Assembly: GCF_000421105.1 (NCBI RefSeq)
Contig: NZ_ATWF01000001.1
Location: forward strand, 1,150,930-1,214,929
Direction of reading: 5' to 3'
Source of the DNA: Limisalsivibrio acetivorans
Lineage (GTDB): Bacteria > Chrysiogenota > Deferribacteres > Deferribacterales > Geovibrionaceae
Length of the DNA: 64,000 nucleotides
Shown: positions 15,399 through 26,292 of the stretch, one piece after another
How positions within the stretch are numbered: the first letter of the stretch is position 1
Layout of the letters: each line of letters starts with the position of its first letter
Program-made: the position numbers and the translations under genes
Notes under the pieces: model-generated
Told to the model about the DNA's origin: nothing
Database searches by the model: none
Seen by the model: only the letters and a program-made list of their open reading frames with translations

Positions 15399-17289
15399 CA
15401 CTGCCCCCATTCTTATTCATTAATTCTCTTAATCCTTCTGCCCATTCATCGATATTCACACGTGATATATGCAGTGCTGCATAGTTATAACCATACAGGT
15501 CAAATATTTCGTTCCGTGCGTGCTCTTCTATTTCAAAATGCTCATCCTTCTTTCCTTCGTTCACAAGCGTTTCCGCCGTAAGTTGCCGGAAATGACTCTC
15601 ATCACATTCTTCGTTAAAATGCATATAACCGATTGCGCCTTCTGATGACTCTCTTTCTATCAGTACTTTTCCAGTTTCGCTCAGCCATGCCTGGACTGTT
15701 TTTTTGAGTATATGTACATTCAGAGTATAGAGCTGAGCTTTCGCCAGGCCTTTTCGAGTCGGGCCGTTTATCATCGGAGCCTTCGTTGTACTAGCTCCCT
15801 TAATCGCATACACACCTAGCGCTTCCCTTTTCGCTGTATATGCGTAGACTGTTTCTGTCTCATAACCGGAATCCACAACAGTGCAAATAATAGGCAGTGA
15901 TGCACCAGATGGGTGGGTGTATTTCTTAGATAGAACATGGTCAAGCTGATTCCATGGTATATCCGACAAGGGACTCCCGTAGAGTACACGATGCTGAATA
16001 TGCCATCTCTGTAGATTTACTCCCCAACCCTGTACCAACACTTCCAACCTGTCCTTCTGCACATCTACAGCAGCTGTAAGCACGCATACACCGACAGGAA
16101 GCCTCTCTTCAGGGCTATATGACCCGAGATTCCGGCGTATTGCTGCTATTTGTTCTTCTTCAACGGTTACCGACGGCTTGTAGAGCTCAGCCAGGTAGCC
16201 GTTGTAGTACACGCGCAAAGCGTCTGCCCCTTTTCTTTTTGCAATGATATACTCGTAAAGCATCTTACCGAATGTGACATGAGGGCTGTAGAAACTACTG
16301 ACACGAAAAGATATTACAAGTCGTTCGCCGGCTTCGAGCACACTGTAGAGTTCTTCATTTTTGCGTGTCTTCCACACGAGACTTGCAAGCATCTGTCGCC
16401 TCGATTTCTCTTTGATACGGTATGAGCATGCAGGGCACTCATAATATGCAAGCTCCCTAGCGTCATCAGGCTCAATATCTTTGGGGTGCAGATGCTTCTT
16501 GTCAAAAACAAACTCTTCAGCGCAATCTGGGCAAGGCACATAAGGATAAAATACATAGTCTGCATTCTCTGCATCATCACATATCCCCCCCTCATGCATC
16601 GGCTTGCCAACTCTAACGATGAGAGAATTAATAAAACCCTTAACCCTTTCTTTTATCAGAGATATAACACTGCCGTATTTTCTGAGGGCCGGCATATCAT
16701 CCTCTTCATCAACAAAGACAATCTTTAGGGGGCGGGATGACAAAGTATTCTCGGAACCGCCCCAGGCCAGGTACATTTTTCCGCCAACAAAAGAGAGGTC
16801 CTTCTTGCGGATTTTACGACCTTCGGCAGTACATATCTTCTTGAGTATATCCCCCTGAGTATTCTCAATCATCGGTAGAACACGGTCATTAAACAGCTCG
16901 ACTGCTTTTGCCTCATTAGGAGCAAGTAGCCCCATCGGTCCAGGAGATTTGTGTATAAAGTACCCTATGCCGTTTAGATACGACTCTGTCTTTGCAACCT
17001 GCGTCCCCCCGACTATAATGATTTCAGCACATGCTCCGGACGACATAGCATCCATTATCCCGTTCGTATGCGGGAAGAGGTCTTTTCGCCAGGGGCCTGC
17101 GACACTCGTTGTTTGCGAGGTCAAAATACGATACTTAGCCGCCCATTCTGAGCAAGTGAGACTGTCAGAAGGTAGAGCTGATACATACTCAATCTCGAAG
17201 TATTCTTCAATACTCAGATCAGCATCAGCAAGAGAAGGGAATTGCAAATAAACATCTTTCAGTACCGCATCTTCAGCAAGCACTCTCAT
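15391..17289 (-). CDS. Terminase large subunit (lambda gpA family)
   Basis: 632 residues (lambda gpA is 641). ATPase part: EIIIVGGTQVAKTESYLNGI holds the Walker A region and KIVFVDEEDDMPA the Walker B. Two C-x2-C pairs follow (YVPCPDCAEEF and YYECPACSYRI). The nuclease part begins at LTAAVDVQKDRLEVLVQGWG with the first catalytic Asp. It cuts and pumps DNA into the procapsid. It overlaps the small subunit by ATGA, as in lambda. Confidence 0.95.
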   Translation of the reverse strand: MRVLAEDAVLKDVYLQFPSLADADLSIEEYFEIEYVSALPSDSLTCSEWAAKYRILTSQTTSVAGPWRKDLFPHTNGIMDAMSSGACAEIIIVGGTQVAKTESYLNGIGYFIHKSPGPMGLLAPNEAKAVELFNDRVLPMIENTQGDILKKICTAEGRKIRKKDLSFVGGKMYLAWGGSENTLSSRPLKIVFVDEEDDMPALRKYGSVISLIKERVKGFINSLIVRVGKPMHEGGICDDAENADYVFYPYVPCPDCAEEFVFDKKHLHPKDIEPDDARELAYYECPACSYRIKEKSRRQMLASLVWKTRKNEELYSVLEAGERLVISFRVSSFYSPHVTFGKMLYEYIIAKRKGADALRVYYNGYLAELYKPSVTVEEEQIAAIRRNLGSYSPEERLPVGVCVLTAAVDVQKDRLEVLVQGWGVNLQRWHIQHRVLYGSPLSDIPWNQLDHVLSKKYTHPSGASLPIICTVVDSGYETETVYAYTAKREALGVYAIKGASTTKAPMINGPTRKGLAKAQLYTLNVHILKKTVQAWLSETGKVLIERESSEGAIGYMHFNEECDESHFRQLTAETLVNEGKKDEHFEIEEHARNEIFDLYGYNYAALHISRVNIDEWAEGLRELMNKNGGSDD

Positions 17290-17957
17290 TTGACTGCCTC
17301 TAGAGCTCGGGCATAGCGGGCGAGTATAAAACTTTTCTGCTTTGACAGTATTTGCCTCTGTTCATTCTTCGACTTCCCATCAAGCTGGTCTGGCAGTGTG
17401 CTGAAAACATCATCAAGGTCTTGGCGGAGAGCAACTATTCTCGCAGCAAATTCACGCCCTACCTTTTCTCGCTCAATGAGCTCCCCTCGCTTTCGCTGTA
17501 GCTCAACTTCGAGCATCTGAGAGCGTAAATGTTTCTGGTGTATATCAGCTTTCATCTTTTCACCGACATAGCCGTCATCATCCATCTGCTGGAGATGCTT
17601 CTCTGCGTATGCGTCTACGTCTGTGCGTCGATATACCCCATCCCTTGGGGAAAAATACCCATTTTTTATATGGTTAGAAATTGTGCGTTCGGATACTTTA
17701 TAACCCACTCCGGTCAGATATTTATGTACACTAACGATGGTTTTGAACGATTCTTCTTCAGCATTCTTTTTATATTTCACAAGCGTGGACTCAAGATGCC
17801 TTTTTGCGCTCTCAGCTGCTTTGAGGGCACGCTGCGTCTTCTCTGCCCTTGCCTCTTCCTTCGCACTCATGTATGACTCAAGCGCTAGTTGCAGGAGCTC
17901 AGACTCCTCAAGTTCAAGATTGTCGATTATCTCAAGTACCTTGTCTTCAAGCGTCAT
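17286..17957 (-). CDS. Terminase small subunit-like protein
   Basis: Real start is the ATG at 17957 (MTLEDKVLEIIDNLELEESE); the longer frame upstream is a shadow of the zinc gene. The protein has 223 residues: a coiled N-terminus, a central HTH-like region (VSERTISNHIKNGYFSPRDG with a strand VYRRTDVDAYAEKHL), and a C-terminal helix with RGELIEREKVGREFAARIVA, which is typical of Nu1-like proteins. It recognises the packaging site. Overlaps the large subunit and the zinc/HTH gene. Confidence 0.85.
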   Translation of the reverse strand: MTLEDKVLEIIDNLELEESELLQLALESYMSAKEEARAEKTQRALKAAESAKRHLESTLVKYKKNAEEESFKTIVSVHKYLTGVGYKVSERTISNHIKNGYFSPRDGVYRRTDVDAYAEKHLQQMDDDGYVGEKMKADIHQKHLRSQMLEVELQRKRGELIEREKVGREFAARIVALRQDLDDVFSTLPDQLDGKSKNEQRQILSKQKSFILARYARALEAVK

Positions 17958-18315
17958 CTTCCATCTCCATTTTGTAGCGCCAGATGCGTACAGTCTCTTC
18001 AGATACACCGGTAAGCATTGCGGTACTCTCATCGGTAGTTCCTGCCCCCAGCAATGCCAGCAGCAGCAGCTGGGAGCTCGGAGGTAACTTTGACCCTGCC
18101 AAAGGGGTCCCTGAGTTCCAGCTGTACCATTTTCCACAGCTGGCACACGATATCTTCTTGCCAGCATTAAGTGTCTCAAATCTATCCGGGGCGGTTTTCC
18201 CGCACTGGGGGCAGCGACAGTCAGCATTAAACATCCGGAATAAATACTCCTTTGCCGATGTATCATTCATCAGCTCTGTGCAGAAATCTGCTGCTATTTG
18301 CTCAAGCTTGTTCAT
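17947..18315 (-). CDS. Zinc-ribbon plus HTH protein resembling transposase N-termini
   Basis: 122 residues. A four-Cys zinc ribbon (DCRCPQCGK and KKISCASCGKWYSW) is followed by a short HTH (GTTDESTAMLTGVSEETVRI), the layout of InsA/IS1595-type DNA-binding domains. There is no catalytic domain, so it is not a transposase. The start overlaps the helicase stop by TAATG and the end overlaps the small terminase start. It probably regulates transcription of the packaging genes or guides packaging. Confidence 0.75.
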   Translation of the reverse strand: MNKLEQIAADFCTELMNDTSAKEYLFRMFNADCRCPQCGKTAPDRFETLNAGKKISCASCGKWYSWNSGTPLAGSKLPPSSQLLLLALLGAGTTDESTAMLTGVSEETVRIWRYKMEMEDDA

Positions 18316-19772
18316 TAGCGCACCTTCGGCAGCTTATATTTTCTCTGGCCGCCCATTCCTTTCTGCATCTTTTCCTTCGAAAATATTGTCGGCTCTATCA
18401 TTCTGATGCTTTCCATTACTTTCCTCGAGCTGTGGTCTACATCAAATATAACTTTATACGCTTCGATTAAATCAGTCTGTGCTATCTCATCCCTTTCAAA
18501 ATCTGCAACAATTGAGTGGTATAACCCGCCACGGTCGCTGTCTTTTAACTCAATCAGAAGCGAAAGATCCCGCTCTAGTATTGCTTTCACATACATACTA
18601 AGCTTGCTGTTCGTTCCGCTGACAATCGCTCGCTTTTCAGGGGTGTCAAGAGCAGTGTGATACATCTCCCAGTCGACATCGTAAGCTTTCAGATACTTCG
18701 CAAAATTCTCCAGCTCTTTTTCGATATTCTCCACAAGCTCAAATGTATTAAGCTTCTCCTTAATCGGTCCGCCTGTCTTTAGTACAGTAAATCGCCTGTC
18801 TGTAGGTTCGATCTCAACCGGCAAAGCTTCGTTCGATGTAATGTATATATTCCCGTAAACCTGCACCTGTTCTGCATCAGTAAACTTCTCTTCCAGCTGA
18901 ATAGAATGGTCAGTCACGAGTTGCTTTAGAAAGTTTTTGTGATGCTTCCGCCCTTTCATATCTACTGCAACCTCGTTCAAATTAAAGAAAAGCATCTCGT
19001 TGACCCAGCTTTTGAACTGAGATTCAATCCTGCTCTGGTCCACTACAACGCAATGTCGCTCTCCGAATAGTGGCTTCAAGACATATTCAAAAAACATCGA
19101 TTTACCGGAGCCCTGGTCCCCTCTTAGCACTAATGCTACATTGCTCTTTTCAAGTGTCTGAAAAAAACCGGCTAACCAGTTCTCGATCCACTCAAAATAG
19201 TCGTGATTCTCATTTGCCAGATTTATGAGGAGCTTTTCAATCCATAGATGCTGCTTGCGCTTGTACCCTTGGAGGGATACCTTCATATACTCACTTGGGC
19301 GAAAGCTTGTACGTCTCCAAATCCCCTTATGATAATAAAACTCGGAAGGGGCAAAAGGGGTGAAATCCTCGTGTACAACAAGCAGATCCTTCGCTGCTAT
19401 GTCAGCTCGCACAAACGTATCTCCGGAGCCTTTGTTGCGGAAAAGCTGTATCTTATCGAGCTTAAAATCGGAACAAAGAACCCGGCCTACCTTCTCGTCA
19501 TCTGCTATTTCAGTGGGATCAGCTTCGACATTTCTGCGATATACGACCCTACCCTGGGGTGATAGCCATATAGCTGCACCCGCCTGATATATCTTTTTTA
19601 TTGCTCTGTTTTCGATATCTTCGATTTTCTTATGTGATTCAATCACTTCACGTACCCAGTTATTCTCTATGAAGTTGCGGTAGTCAGGCCTGTTTTTCGT
19701 GTCCAGTATGTATTTTTTTTCCCTTTCAAGAGGCAGCAGCTCATCCTTGAGTTTCGGCTTCTCTTCGCTCAT
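18315..19772 (-). CDS. Primase-helicase (DUF5906 / D5-like SF3 ATPase)
   Basis: 485 residues. The C-terminal half is an SF3-like helicase: ALVLRGDQGSGKSMFFEYVL holds Walker A, NEMLFFNLNEVAVD Walker B, and YGNIYITSNEALPVEIEPTD the sensor and arginine finger region (DRRF). The N-terminus is a charged region of unknown fold. It would unwind DNA at the phage origin, working with the AEP-like primase two genes upstream. Starts by ATGA overlap with the 79-residue gene. Confidence 0.9.
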   Translation of the reverse strand: MSEEKPKLKDELLPLEREKKYILDTKNRPDYRNFIENNWVREVIESHKKIEDIENRAIKKIYQAGAAIWLSPQGRVVYRRNVEADPTEIADDEKVGRVLCSDFKLDKIQLFRNKGSGDTFVRADIAAKDLLVVHEDFTPFAPSEFYYHKGIWRRTSFRPSEYMKVSLQGYKRKQHLWIEKLLINLANENHDYFEWIENWLAGFFQTLEKSNVALVLRGDQGSGKSMFFEYVLKPLFGERHCVVVDQSRIESQFKSWVNEMLFFNLNEVAVDMKGRKHHKNFLKQLVTDHSIQLEEKFTDAEQVQVYGNIYITSNEALPVEIEPTDRRFTVLKTGGPIKEKLNTFELVENIEKELENFAKYLKAYDVDWEMYHTALDTPEKRAIVSGTNSKLSMYVKAILERDLSLLIELKDSDRGGLYHSIVADFERDEIAQTDLIEAYKVIFDVDHSSRKVMESIRMIEPTIFSKEKMQKGMGGQRKYKLPKVR

Positions 19773-20008
19773 AGCTCATCCCTGCTCTGTATGTTTTTTG
19801 CTATCTGCTCAATACTAATCCCTTCCCGTATCGAGTATCTCTCAAGTCCATCGAAGGATATTACACCTAGTTCGCTAAAGTAATCGGGAAGTGATATAGT
19901 GTCATAAGACAATGCATAGCATGATCCTTCTTGGAGCCGATACCGCACTACCGCTTGGTCTGTTATCTCAATGCAACTCTCCGGAACTGGGATAAAGACT
20001 CTATACAT
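19769..20008 (-). CDS. Small phage protein between primase and helicase
   Basis: 79 residues from the ATG at 20008 (TGATG overlap with the primase stop). It contains IPVPESCIEITDQAVVRYRL and ISFDGLERYSIREGISIEQI, a mixed beta/alpha protein without a known motif. The position suggests a replication accessory protein. No function can be named. Confidence 0.65.
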   Translation of the reverse strand: MYRVFIPVPESCIEITDQAVVRYRLQEGSCYALSYDTISLPDYFSELGVISFDGLERYSIREGISIEQIAKNIQSRDEL

Positions 20009-20844
20009 CACACATCCCCGATATATGCGAGATAATCACAGGACATACATTTAACCATAAGTGACCCGTTTTTATGCCTGGCTACAAAGGCCGATGGATC
20101 TTTGTCAGGATGAGTAGGACTAGGACACCGCACAGAGACCCGTTCGCTTGTTATGTACTCAAGATCCTCGAAAGGCACAGACTCAAGCCCTCTACCCTTT
20201 TTTACCTCTATCAATGTCGTTCGGGGGAGCTCATTCCTTTTTAGCCCGGCAGTTCTGCCCGTCTCCTTCTTATATCTCTTTTTAATTTTCCTCTGCTGCT
20301 TGCACTCCTCTGCTTGTTTCATTTCTTGCACAGCACCAAAGTTTTTATATAACACGGGAAAATCAAGTACTTTCCCAGTCAGCAAATAATGTACTTGCTG
20401 GTTAGGGTTAGGGAAAAAAAAGCGTGTCGGATCCTTTGTCTTATCTATATTCTGCAGTATCCCGAGCAAATCAGCGAGATAGTCATAAAATAGCTGGTAT
20501 TCCCCAAACTCTAGGTTCACAGGAGATGTGAGGGGAATAAGAAGACGATATCTATCACATGACGGCTTATCTTTTTTTTCTTTCTGATGACTCTTTGACG
20601 TTACTACCAGAGATGTAATACCAAGTGACAGCATTCGTTTGCGCGTCTCTTCAAGAGGATATCCGTCATCGAAATCAAACATAAACAACTCAGACACACC
20701 TTTCATATGATCACGGTGACGATGCCCCCCCTCAAAAATACCTACGGAATAGTTCACGCTAGAAGTTATCTCATGCAGCCGCAAAAAAGGGACATTCACT
20801 TCTTTAAAGCGATATGTAATATCCGTTGATACAGAAAGACGCAT
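20008..20844 (-). CDS. AEP-like DNA primase with a C-terminal zinc finger
   Basis: 278 residues from the ATG at 20844. MFDFDDGYP holds the DxD-like metal site of archaeo-eukaryotic primases, followed by VVTSKSHQKEK and DRYRLLIPLT, which match the second and third AEP motifs. The C-terminus has SVRCPSPTHPDKDPSAF and LMVKCMSCDYLAYIG, a CHC2-type zinc finger placed at the end rather than the start. It makes primers for phage DNA replication together with the helicase. Confidence 0.82.
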   Translation of the reverse strand: MRLSVSTDITYRFKEVNVPFLRLHEITSSVNYSVGIFEGGHRHRDHMKGVSELFMFDFDDGYPLEETRKRMLSLGITSLVVTSKSHQKEKKDKPSCDRYRLLIPLTSPVNLEFGEYQLFYDYLADLLGILQNIDKTKDPTRFFFPNPNQQVHYLLTGKVLDFPVLYKNFGAVQEMKQAEECKQQRKIKKRYKKETGRTAGLKRNELPRTTLIEVKKGRGLESVPFEDLEYITSERVSVRCPSPTHPDKDPSAFVARHKNGSLMVKCMSCDYLAYIGDV

Positions 20845-21170
20845 CACAATGCCTCGTCGCCTATAACACGCTGTAAGTTGCCGGCAACGTACCTTCGTAT
20901 ATCTCCCATTCGATACCGCACACTGTTGCCTACCTTCGTGTAGGGTATACCTGTTTTCGCAGTTCGCATGTTCCTCAATGTCGATGTCGACATCCCAGTC
21001 AGTTTGGCCACTTCCCGGTCATCCAGAAGCTGGTCATCACTGTACTTTTTTTCCGATGCCTGAGTTGATATATACACAAGCAAATCGATCTGCTTCGTCA
21101 GGTCCTCTATAACAGGTTTCAAAGCTGTTGATACCGCTGCTGTAATATAACTGTCTATGCTTCCGGACAT
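20844..21170 (-). CDS. HTH protein with AlpA/excisionase fold
   Basis: 108 residues. A helical N-terminus (ALKPVIEDLTKQIDLLVYIS) is followed by DREVAKLTGMSTSTLRNMRT and VGNSVRYRMGDIRRYVAGN, the standard excisionase/AlpA winged HTH. The stop overlaps the primase start (TGATG). It could be the phage excisionase or an activator of early genes. Confidence 0.8.
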   Translation of the reverse strand: MSGSIDSYITAAVSTALKPVIEDLTKQIDLLVYISTQASEKKYSDDQLLDDREVAKLTGMSTSTLRNMRTAKTGIPYTKVGNSVRYRMGDIRRYVAGNLQRVIGDEAL

Positions 21171-22165: not shown

Positions 22166-22375
22166 TGTTCAGCTCCTCTTATCTTGCTCATGTACTTACA
22201 TCAGCGCCCGGGGCATACAGAACTCAAGTTGATATACCTATACTCATAGTATTGGATTGCTCATTCCAACCATATTCTGTATGATGTGTAATGTTATATA
22301 ATCTATAATGTAGATATTATGCACTCATTATGCATATGTCAACATTGTTTTGTGTAGATCATGCAAGAGGATATT
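22166..22375. promoter_or_regulatory. Divergent lysis-lysogeny control region
   Basis: This AT-rich stretch separates the CI-like and Cro-like genes. It contains GATGTGTAATGTTA at 22284-22297, which recurs at 24813-24826, and further TAATGT/ACATTAT-like pieces around 22300-22350. Such recurring near-palindromes are likely repressor operators. Promoter boxes were not assigned. Confidence 0.55.
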
Positions 22376-22804
22376 ATGAACTTCGGGCAGAGAATCAAAT
22401 TTATCAGGAATGATAGCAAGTTAACACAGTCTCAATTTGCAGATATTTTCAATAAAACTCACACAGCTGTTCAGTTTTGGGAAGCTAATAAGTCAAAGCC
22501 ACCTAAGCGTGATATCGATAAGATGTGCAAACTTTTCAAAGTAAACAAAGAATGGCTCATTACAGGGAAAGGAGAAATATATTCCCAAGATCTCAATGCT
22601 AATAATAATGTATCAATCGGTAGTAATAACCGGATGGAAGCCGGCGGCTCAAACACAATCAACATAAACGGAGCTGGACAAGAGCCAGAGATGAGAAAAG
22701 ATGTCGCTGAACTCATTCAGCTGCTGAACGATTACGCACCGCCGACTATGGTCAAGCAAATCAAAGACAGACTCCTCGAAATAAAAAAGAACTACAATCT
22801 ATAG
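22376..22804 (+). CDS. CI-like phage repressor (XRE HTH, no peptidase domain)
   Basis: 142 residues from the ATG at 22376, which has AAGAGGA before it. The N-terminus is a clear XRE domain (SKLTQSQFADIFNKTHTAVQ and FKVNKEWLITGKGE). A glycine/asparagine-rich linker (NNNVSIGSNNRMEAGGSN) leads to a C-terminal helical region likely for oligomerisation. There is no S24 peptidase, so induction cannot run by RecA-driven self-cleavage. It faces the Cro-like gene. Confidence 0.85.
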   Translation: MNFGQRIKFIRNDSKLTQSQFADIFNKTHTAVQFWEANKSKPPKRDIDKMCKLFKVNKEWLITGKGEIYSQDLNANNNVSIGSNNRMEAGGSNTININGAGQEPEMRKDVAELIQLLNDYAPPTMVKQIKDRLLEIKKNYNL

Positions 22805-22844: not shown

Positions 22845-22874
22845 ATATAATCAATTATCATGCAGGGTAATGTT

Positions 22875-23357
22875 ATGTACAAACTGCGCATCGTAAGCGG
22901 GACTTTCCTATTCATTATGGCCGTTCTATTTCTTTTCAATAAGAGCTGGTTGTTGTCCATTGCCTCTTTCATAATTGCATTTTTTCTTAACCCTATCAAT
23001 TCAAGCAATACCAAGAACAATATAGACAATAACAAGAACGAATCTAGTGACTGGTCCAGTAATGAATTACCTCCTGAATATGATTTTGATTTACCGCCTG
23101 ACATTGGTATTGAAAGCCTGCATGGACTTAAAGAACACATCCACTTTAAGTATAGGTCTAATCATGGAGAAATTACCGAAAGAGATGTTTATGTATATCG
23201 CACAGACTTCTATTATATCAACACATTCTGCGAGCTAAGAAATGACATGAGAACTTTCAAAATTAACAGTATCATAGGTGAAATCATAGACCTCAATACA
23301 GGCGAAGTCTTTGAACCCACAGAGTGGATACAGATGCTTATCTACAAAAACCTATAA
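22875..23357 (+). CDS. Membrane-anchored WYL-like protein encoded beside the repressor
   Basis: Start taken at the ATG at 22875 (160 residues); an ATG at 22860 is in frame. Two hydrophobic segments (VSGTFLFIMAVLFLF, SIASFIIAFFL) precede an asparagine-rich linker and a C-terminal domain of about 75 residues. HIHFKYRSNHGEITERDVYV, then YYINTFCELRNDMRTFKINS, match the F-x-Y...R...RTF-x-I-x-R/S-I pattern of WYL folds. It follows the repressor and so should be expressed in the lysogen; superinfection exclusion or signalling at the membrane are possible roles. Confidence 0.65.
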   Translation: MYKLRIVSGTFLFIMAVLFLFNKSWLLSIASFIIAFFLNPINSSNTKNNIDNNKNESSDWSSNELPPEYDFDLPPDIGIESLHGLKEHIHFKYRSNHGEITERDVYVYRTDFYYINTFCELRNDMRTFKINSIIGEIIDLNTGEVFEPTEWIQMLIYKNL

Positions 23358-23943
23358 GTGCCGGCACAGTTCTTTAATATGCAGACAGAATAACACATTG
23401 CCTCCAGGGTTCAATCCTATCACACCAATCGTGCTATCTGACACCTCTTGGCATAAATGCATTAAACATACTATTTATGCTTGTTAACAATCTATACTTC
23501 ATACACTTATAAGACTGAATAAGCATTGATATGCTATATCTGTTTACTGCTTACTGAATCCCTTATTGCATTCTACACGTGTTATTTATAGTACTATATT
23601 CTGGATTCTGTATTTTCTAATGATTAACTTATTTTCTCATAGCCATCTGCTTGGTAAATTTACGAGCTCAATTCTAGACGTTTTATGCAATATGACCGTC
23701 ATTATTTCGACGTTCATAGTCATGTTAGCCTTATAATATAAGGCAAATTGCTAATACAGAACATCAGATACACTCATGAATGCATTTTTAGCCTTTAACT
23801 ATAAGCAAAAGTACCAATTTCAACCCCCTTTTATTATTCACTAAACATAAACTTATAATTTAAGATTATTCATTTTATCGCTTACTACCATGTATTTTCT
23901 ATAATTATTTTATTAATTGTATTGCACAACGTTGATTTTCAAA

Positions 23944-24474
23944 CAGCCCCAACTATGATTGTCTAAATGTTGCTGTAAATTGCAGGTAGTAAGCTTATTT
24001 CGTACTTTTTCGAAACATTTAAAGCATTATAAATTCTATCATATATTATTGTTAATACACTACTTATTGCATGCATACATTTAAACAGCCTCAAATAAAA
24101 GAATATTGCCTTATTAAATTTCATATATTGTAAAATCACTTACATGATATATAATGAATATTGCCTTATTTTATACAGCCTCAAAACAGCCCCAAAAGGT
24201 ATAGATTAAAATAACAAATTTGTACAAGTAAACAGTACTGATTATCAATTATTTATAGATTAATTTTAAGCAATTTTCACAAAAATAACAGCCTCAACAG
24301 CGCCAAATCGAGTGTTTTTAAAATTCCCAGAAAATAATTTGGCAAGGCTCGAAAATTTTGGGCTGTTGAGCCGAAAACACCGTTATAAAACCTTTAATAT
24401 TACTGATACATAGTGTATTAACCCCACAGACACAATCAGAAATTTGGGGCTGTTTTGAGGCTGTTTTGGGGCTG
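23944..24474. repeat. CAGCCYCAA iteron-like repeats in both orientations
   Basis: Forward copies: 23944, 24086, 24176, 24187, 24289, and a variant CAGCGCCAA at 24298. Reverse copies (TTGRGGCTG): 24444, 24455, 24466, with a one-base-shorter copy at 24358. Copies in clusters are spaced by 9 or 11 bases, about one helical turn, and the last cluster faces the others. That is how iterons and multi-site operators look. Confidence 0.7.
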
Positions 24475-24555
24475 TTCTCCTCTTAGCTCAAACAATCATC
24501 AATAACTTACGTCCTGCCTGGAAGCGTAAACGCCTTTTTTTAACCGAGATTAGAA

Positions 24556-24602
24556 TTGCCATCTGCTTGGCAACCCACCCAACGCCGCCAAGCAGATGGC
24601 AA
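24556..24602. repeat. Perfect 16-base inverted repeat hairpin
   Basis: TTGCCATCTGCTTGGC at 24556-24571 and its exact complement at 24587-24602 flank a 15-base loop. The inner GCCATCTGCTTGG also occurs at 23642-23654. No T-run follows, so it is not a terminator. Confidence 0.7.
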
Positions 24603-24979
24603 AGCACCCCATATTGCCGTATTCTATCAGACATTCGCCGGCACCTTACAAAAAAAGGGCTATCCGGCTAATTGCCTGATAACCCTTATCAACCTGCACC
24701 GCAACGGAAAAACAACTGCAAAAACACGCAAAACCCGCGTGTCTTGCGTCCCGCTACAGGGCATACCCCCCTGCAGAGGACCCGTCACCCGATTATGGTG
24801 TTAAATTAAAACGATGTGTAATGTTACCCTTACAAAATAAGGGCGAGAACCAACTTCGTCAGGAAAAAAAGCGGTCAGAAAATGTATATTCTGATGTGAG
24901 CCGGCAGTTGCAGCAACCAACAACTACCTACAGTGAAGCATTGCCGACTCAACAAGCCGGCTCTCTTATTATCACGTCA

Positions 24980-26086
24980 CTACGTGTTCTCTGTCTCACT
25001 GAACATTGAATCAACCCTTGCTGCTGCTGCCTGTAGCTGCCGATCTCTAATGTGTGCATACTTCTGTGTCACAGTAACGCTGCTGTGATGCAGTAGCCTC
25101 GAGATTACAGTGAGTGATTCCCCAGCCTCAAGCATTTTTGTCGCAAATGTATGTCTAATGTCGTGAAACCTGACATGTTCACGAATACCTGCATCCTTCT
25201 TAACTCTTGCCCAGAGAGTCCTTATATCCTTTCTCTGCCCCCCCATACGCGAAGGAAATACATACTCACAATCCCCTTTCTCTCCTACCTTCTCAAGCAC
25301 TCTCAATGCTTTCTTAGAGAGCAATACATAATCTTTACGACGATTCTTTGTCTCCCCAAGAGTAAGAGTATTTTTTGCCAAATTTACATCTGACCATTTA
25401 AGCCTAAAGAGTGATGAAAGCCTTAGCCCAGTGTATAATGCGAGAAGTATAAGCTCGCCACCGTTATCCCTATACTCATTCTGTGTGCATGCTTGAACAA
25501 GAGCAGCGCACTCTTCATCTGTAAGCGCTTCAACGACTGTATTATCTGGGACACTCACAGTCACTAAAGAAGCTGGATTACGCTGATTATAGAGTTCATT
25601 TTCCGCAAGATAGTTAAACATGCGATGCACAACTTGCTTGTATTGCCTAACAGTCGCCGGAGCAACTGTCCCTCCTCCCTTCCTTGTGTGCGTTCTCGCT
25701 CTGACTTTTGTAATAAATATCTCAATATCACGCGGAGTTATTTCATCAATATGAAGAGAACCATACATTTTCACAAACAGACCCAGTCTTCTTTTATCAT
25801 CTATCCATGAAGATTTATTTTCTTTTGCGTTAATAACATATAGCTCTGATGCCTTTTCTACTGTCAGTACATCTACCTTTCTGACACTACCCAGTAATCT
25901 TTCGGAACGTCTCTGCGAAGCATATAAAGCTGAGTACCCGTCTGACAACCAACCTACTTTCTCTTGTATCTGCTTATTCTTATAGTAGTATTTTATGTAA
26001 AAGCAACGATCCGGCTTCCCTTTGTATTTTTTTTTAGCTGATTCGTAGTAGTATACTCCTTGTTTTTGTGTCTTAATCAGTATCAT
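24980..26086 (-). CDS. int: Prophage tyrosine recombinase (integrase)
   Basis: 368 residues. N-terminal arm-binding part with YYKNKQIQEKVGWLSDG, core-binding SAM-like domain, then the catalytic domain: Arg in TGLRLSSLFRLKWSDV, HDIRHTFATKML (H-x-x-R), HHSSVTVTQKYAH (His and the nucleophile Tyr). It lies right beside the tRNA-Leu fragment, as expected for an integrase next to its attachment site. Its start codon is overlapped upstream by TTTACACTCG repeats. Confidence 0.95.
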   Translation of the reverse strand: MILIKTQKQGVYYYESAKKKYKGKPDRCFYIKYYYKNKQIQEKVGWLSDGYSALYASQRRSERLLGSVRKVDVLTVEKASELYVINAKENKSSWIDDKRRLGLFVKMYGSLHIDEITPRDIEIFITKVRARTHTRKGGGTVAPATVRQYKQVVHRMFNYLAENELYNQRNPASLVTVSVPDNTVVEALTDEECAALVQACTQNEYRDNGGELILLALYTGLRLSSLFRLKWSDVNLAKNTLTLGETKNRRKDYVLLSKKALRVLEKVGEKGDCEYVFPSRMGGQRKDIRTLWARVKKDAGIREHVRFHDIRHTFATKMLEAGESLTVISRLLHHSSVTVTQKYAHIRDRQLQAAAARVDSMFSETENT

Positions 26087-26087
26087 T

Positions 26088-26131
26088 TTTACACTCGTTT
26101 TACACTCGTAAAGTAATAAACAAGTGTAAAC
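26088..26131. repeat. TTTACACTCG repeats before integrase (arm-site or operator candidates)
   Basis: TTTACACTCG occurs at 26088 and 26099, eleven bases apart, and its complement core AGTGTAAA at 26123. They overlap the integrase ribosome site and sit about 100 bases from the attachment site. They could bind integrase arms, excisionase or a repressor of int. Confidence 0.55.
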
Positions 26132-26230
26132 ATGGGTAACACGCTTGTCAACTTATAGCACGTAATACATTGTTAATAAGTAAGAATGTGCTTGCTAGTA
26201 AAACGAGGTAAACAATATAAAAATGGATGT

Positions 26231-26288
26231 GACGGACTCAAAATCCGTTAGTAGCAATACTGTGGGGGTTCGATTCCCCCCTTCGGCA
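26231..26288 (+). other. attR: 3' half of tRNA-Leu(CAA)
   Basis: From 26232 the sequence folds as an anticodon arm (ACGGA, loop CTCAAAA, TCCGT; anticodon CAA at 26239-26241), a long leucine-type variable arm, a T-arm (GGGGG, TTCGATT, CCCCC) and the 3' acceptor strand CTTCGGC plus A at 26288. The 5' acceptor strand and D-arm are absent; upstream is phage sequence. The CCA is not encoded. This is the chromosomal end of a tRNA split by prophage integration; the intact copy should be at the left prophage end, outside this window. Confidence 0.85.
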
Positions 26289-26292
26289 TATT

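Follow-up and report, generated by a model that had tools for sequence, protein, structure and literature searches.

We identified an array of short repeats within a dormant prophage of a Deferribacterota bacterium that is probably the replication origin of a temperate phage: two iteron sets that converge, and an AT-rich region where unwinding would occur. Judged from sequence and its comparison, an origin with opposed iteron sets is the best reading, since it explains the position of the array, its expected melting, its phage specificity and the recurrence of its layout in related phages. This places a likely origin for a phage group for which we found no published one.

The array comprises eight exact CAGCCYCAA sites between 23944 and 24474, five on the plus strand followed by three on the minus strand, together with two near copies (Table 1). 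The left set reads CAGCCYCAAA on the plus strand and the right set on the minus strand, and the two sets face each other across and next to very AT-rich DNA that should melt easily. Outside the array, the window (the whole stretch of 64,000 nucleotides that was analysed) holds three further matches, at 25123 within the integrase gene (int), 47751 and 52079, and 64-kb shuffles gave a mean of 1.22 matches with a maximum of 5. Within the 36,966-bp prophage, 8 of the 9 matches fall inside the array, and the enrichment in the 1,622-bp gene-free region exceeds that of all dinucleotide shuffles (60/60). The tandem pair CAGCCYCAA-N1-4-CAGCCYCAA is unique to the array in the 2.97-Mb host genome. A preliminary description of this DNA had the motif, the coordinates and the inversion of the last three copies right, and the host-genome search that it proposed confined the tandem pair to the array. 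Its 11-base spacing holds for the pair at 24176/24187 and the triple at 24444/24455/24466, but elsewhere exact copies lie 90-155 bp apart, and the 15-base repeat GAATATTGCCTTATT, which it had placed at the flanks, sits within the array.

Searches for the array returned no match in Rfam and none in a nucleotide search of phages, and in viral contigs the exact tandem-pair pattern recovered only the same prophage (L005) and chance matches in coding DNA. Single-strand folding of the array gave a z of -5.8; an RNA reading was not accepted, because the inverted repeats account for this value. As a separate observation, GCCATCTGCTTGG has exactly three copies in the host genome, all in the array region, two of them in a perfect 16-bp inverted repeat.

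Table 1 Features of the prophage and of the repeat array (positions in the window)
Feature	Position	Strand	Basis or value
attL	about 10.7 kb left of window start		
DUF5906/VapE-like helicase, NrS-1 CTR fold, predicted C-terminal winged helix; second candidate array binder	18315..19772	-	
AEP-type primase with C-terminal Cys motif	20008..20847	-	
HTH_17 protein, Xis/BldC-like fold; first candidate array binder	20844..21170	-	
CI-like repressor	22361..22804	+	
WYL-domain protein	22860..23357	+	
AT-rich, gene-free stretch from WYL gene to int	23358..24979	.	GC 0.36
GCCATCTGCTTGG, single copy	23642..23654	+	
Weakest 100-bp segment of the prophage duplex, candidate unwinding element	23829..23929	.	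nearest-neighbour stability
Iteron 1 CAGCCCCAA	23944..23952	+	motif scan
Second weakest 100-bp segment of the prophage duplex	24075..24175	.	nearest-neighbour stability
Iteron 2 CAGCCTCAA	24086..24094	+	motif scan
Direct repeat GAATATTGCCTTATT, copy 1	24101..24115	+	
Direct repeat GAATATTGCCTTATT, copy 2	24156..24170	+	
Iteron 3 CAGCCTCAA	24176..24184	+	motif scan
Iteron 4 CAGCCCCAA	24187..24195	+	motif scan
Iteron 5 CAGCCTCAA	24289..24297	+	motif scan
Near copy CAGCGCCAA	24298..24306	+	
Near copy CAGCCCAAA	24357..24365	-	
Iteron 6 CAGCCCCAA	24444..24452	-	motif scan
Iteron 7 CAGCCTCAA	24455..24463	-	motif scan
Iteron 8 CAGCCCCAA	24466..24474	-	motif scan
Perfect 16-bp inverted repeat with the remaining two GCCATCTGCTTGG copies	24556..24602	.	
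Terminator-like site downstream of int	24726..24749	-	consensus match only
Tyrosine integrase (int)	24980..26086	-	
Probable Int arm-type sites TTTACACTYG	26088..26130	26088+, 26099+, 26121-	
attR, 59-bp repeat of tRNA-Leu(CAA) 3' end	26231..26289	+	

The ends of the prophage are marked by a 59-bp repeat of the 3' end of tRNA-Leu(CAA), and among its genes are those for portal, GpA terminase, baseplate, AEP-type primase, DUF5906 helicase, HTH_17 protein, a CII-like protein, repressor and integrase. Near its left end lies a HigB/HigA-like toxin-antitoxin pair (L084:10952-11560). The array sits where the repressor and WYL genes on the plus strand and int on the minus strand end towards each other; the region is indeed gene-free, as first described, on similarity grounds, with genes converging on it from both sides. 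This position bears on whether the repeats could instead be a multi-site operator to which the repressor or the HTH protein binds, as their location downstream of the repressor gene might suggest and as Cox/Apl-type regulators, which bind direct repeats, would allow. Against a promoter operator, genes on both sides end towards the array, a possible int terminator stands between int and the array, no gene start adjoins it in the window and its sites are not palindromic; we regard this alternative as unlikely.

Nearest-neighbour calculations place the weakest duplex of the prophage beside and within the left iteron set, not just between the sets, and in the related phages, too, the duplex of the region is weakest near or among the repeats. 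Strand and GC skew cannot test the origin in this prophage, because almost every gene is on the same strand.

We then compared relatives, defined as phages with a common HTH protein, primase, helicase and terminase at identities of mostly 30-57%, after turning their matching regions to one orientation. The same layout recurs downstream of the repressor gene, but the repeat sequences differ. In L113 (L203 is the same contig again), 10 GGACYCA sites run mostly forward then reverse with a tandem spacing of 9-12, their enrichment exceeds 60/60 shuffles, and the recurrence was graded strong. A Mucispirillum phage fragment (L097) carries four CGGGCAC at a spacing of 10-11 at a contig end, with one side only; this word too exceeds 60/60 shuffles and was graded strong. 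In the G007 prophage, CGGGC occurs near the array in five forward copies followed by two reverse ones, and once more in reverse at a distance, with a tandem spacing of 13; all five copies of CGGGC[AG][CT]AA (CGGGCRYAA) in 29.5 kb fall in the region, and the recurrence was graded moderate, although in the enrichment test an A-rich word outranks the motif, which falls below the best shuffle. The weak grades went to G011, where two exact forward and two exact reverse GGTCTAA are not significant alone (15/60 shuffles were as good in an unbiased enrichment test), and to the GGAACTGA repeats of L108 (1/60 shuffles as good). Counted with exact words that were chosen after the regions had been seen, the fractions within these regions are, besides the 5/5 in G007, 10/11 for GGACYCA, 4/4 for CGGGCAC, 4/5 for GGTCTAA and 8/9 for CAGCCYCAA. 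The motifs fit YRGNYNYRAA loosely, a pattern fitted by eye from which several sites depart. No array is present at the opposite end of the L109 record, and the L113 and Mucispirillum motifs are too short for pattern searching, which gave chance matches. Scanning genome contigs with the helicase returned two relatives already known and one remote match only. Sister phages with one layout and differing repeats offer a natural experiment on joint change of origin and initiator.

Two observations concern the neighbourhoods of these relatives. In G007, two copies of the tRNA-Leu 3' end lie about 20.8 kb apart (L078 9427-9491 and 30190-30254, in locus coordinates extended into L086), and a second integrase, interrupted by a stop, is found near the far copy; elements probably stand in tandem at one tRNA there. 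To the right of the G011 prophage, L079:11700-12850 is a tandem array that repeats every 60 bp, is composed of GTTCACTGCCGCATAGGCAGCTTAGAAA and variable spacers, and resembles a CRISPR array.

The array lies adjacent to int in 5/6 phages, the 11-bp tandem spacing is typical of integrase arm-type and excisionase sites, and the HTH protein has an excisionase-like fold, all of which would fit a role at the attachment site, as arm-type sites of the integrase or as excisionase sites. This reading was dropped once the ends of the prophage, and an arm motif distinct from the array repeats, had been found, and we hold it to be very improbable. The array is not part of the attachment site, because Int has probable arm sites of another sequence, TTTACACTYG, at the att core. 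That motif closely flanks the core on both sides, an arrangement that the array lacks, and close variants stand beside int in G007 and G011, whereas the array is 1.76 kb from the core. Among these phages the array motif changes and TTTACACTYG hardly does. In the Mucispirillum fragment, moreover, the array is downstream of the repressor and away from int, which lies elsewhere. Upstream of int, TTGACA at 26151 on the minus strand marks a promoter-like site; the probable arm sites overlap or adjoin it (26088-26151), which suggests that Int could repress its own gene.

Structure prediction points to two candidate binders. The HTH_17 protein has 108 aa and is encoded directly upstream of the primase gene; its model (pLDDT 77) matches the RdfS excisionase (E 1.5e-3), BldC and phage Xis. 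Folds of the RdfS/BldC/Xis type bind tandem direct repeats, and BldC does so head to tail. The helicase model has a mean pLDDT of 65, poor at the centre and good in the C-terminal winged helix. The C-terminal region of NrS-1 polymerase is its best solved relative (E 2.7e-16, with sequence agreement at 32%), which places a homologous ring helicase region of the NrS-1 type in the prophage; a match to the SaPI5 primase-helicase is weak. On these models, the array is most likely bound by the HTH_17 protein as first candidate, or else by the helicase C-terminal winged helix. Either protein, the former most likely, would bind the tandem sites head to tail, and binding would open the AT-rich segment, onto which the ring helicase and the primase could be loaded. 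The convergent sets would then start two crossing leading strands, and we infer that replication would be bidirectional.

Weaker Foldseek matches of the HTH_17 model to TubR, AspA and the gpNu1 fold raise two other roles. The first, a partition centre of the parS/tubC type bound by a winged-helix protein, is disfavoured since no ParA, ParM or TubZ was present among the prophage proteins scanned (part of the ORFs) and the phage integrates in the chromosome, at tRNA-Leu; we give it very little credence. Iterons of an origin, a partition centre and a multi-site operator had all been proposed at the outset, and the comparative evidence favours the iterons over the other two. The gpNu1 fold, the GpA-type terminase genes and the repeated nature of cosB-like sites would fit a packaging region (cos or pac) bound by the small terminase subunit, but the terminase genes are more than 5 kb from the array, with replication and lysogeny genes in between, and the array of the Mucispirillum fragment is also on the far side of the repressor, which leaves packaging highly unlikely.

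Several known systems share parts of the organization that we interpret as an origin. In satellite P4, ori and crr carry type I iterons that are short, non-palindromic and present in both orientations, and replication uses a primase-helicase; P4 differs in its fused alpha protein, a different iteron sequence and two separate loci. PICI/SaPI origins (PMC6092414) likewise have short iterons, in two sets, and an AT-rich region, and are used with a primase and a helicase/initiator. That no phage element with this motif had been described holds for the exact sequence, but not for the layout, which resembles these published origins. PICI elements are, however, helper-dependent satellites, whereas the prophage described here is a complete phage that encodes terminase, portal and baseplate proteins. 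A PICI origin also lies immediately 3' of the replication initiator gene, while here the array is between repressor and int, 3-6 kb from the replication genes and more than 4 kb from the helicase gene, across the repressor, which counts against the origin reading. A layout of this kind in complete phages from a different phylum would pose a shared ancestor or a convergent solution as alternatives to test. The Vibrio cholerae PLE origin (PMC7145576) is similar in that a noncoding region carries several repeat families, one of them needed for replication; it differs in its semi-palindromic iterons and RepA_N initiator, and PLE RepA has no predicted primase or helicase activity (PMC7145576).

NrS-1 shares with this prophage the homologous helicase region and dense short repeats with 12-bp units: 11 copies of AGTGTAAC lie in 316 bp immediately 3' of the prim-pol gene, where 0.38 are expected in 24.9 kb. 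The NrS-1 repeats (L101:13061-13376, NrS-1 record 17062-17377) are themselves a candidate NrS-1 origin. NrS-1 prim-pol starts at TTTGGTTA (PMC8718748), and this published initiation sequence has one occurrence in the stretch, within the repeat array, where it overlaps one repeat at the TTTTGGTTACAC unit. The NrS-1 genome centre holds two recognition copies, which may serve as origin (PMC7102993); we found no mention of an array around the start site in the searchable literature. Unlike here, the NrS-1 prim-pol is fused, its array overlaps a small annotated ORF, and its repeats stand in mixed orientations instead of two clean opposed sets.

This precedent suggests a special case of the origin reading, in which the repeats, read as TTTTGGGGCTG / TTTTGAGGCTG, are template start sites of the primase in two opposed batteries. 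The units here begin TTTGGGG, TTTGAGG, TTTGAGTCC and TTTGCGCCC, which would fit, but a TTT start is common in AT-rich DNA, the primase domain is not close to that of NrS-1, and TTTGGTTA is absent from the part of the prophage that the window covers, its sole window match (58864) lying outside the prophage. We consider template sites rather improbable. Only slightly less doubtful is the proposal that the iterons double as primase start templates, with opposed TTTTGRGGCTG batteries that would set the start and direction of the leading strands; the sites would then co-evolve with the primase or the HTH protein, so that sister phages would not cross-replicate. Separately, in an unrelated GC-rich phage, GGGACTCACC-type repeats in both orientations occur at the 3' end of a primase-polymerase gene (L205:2279-2490).
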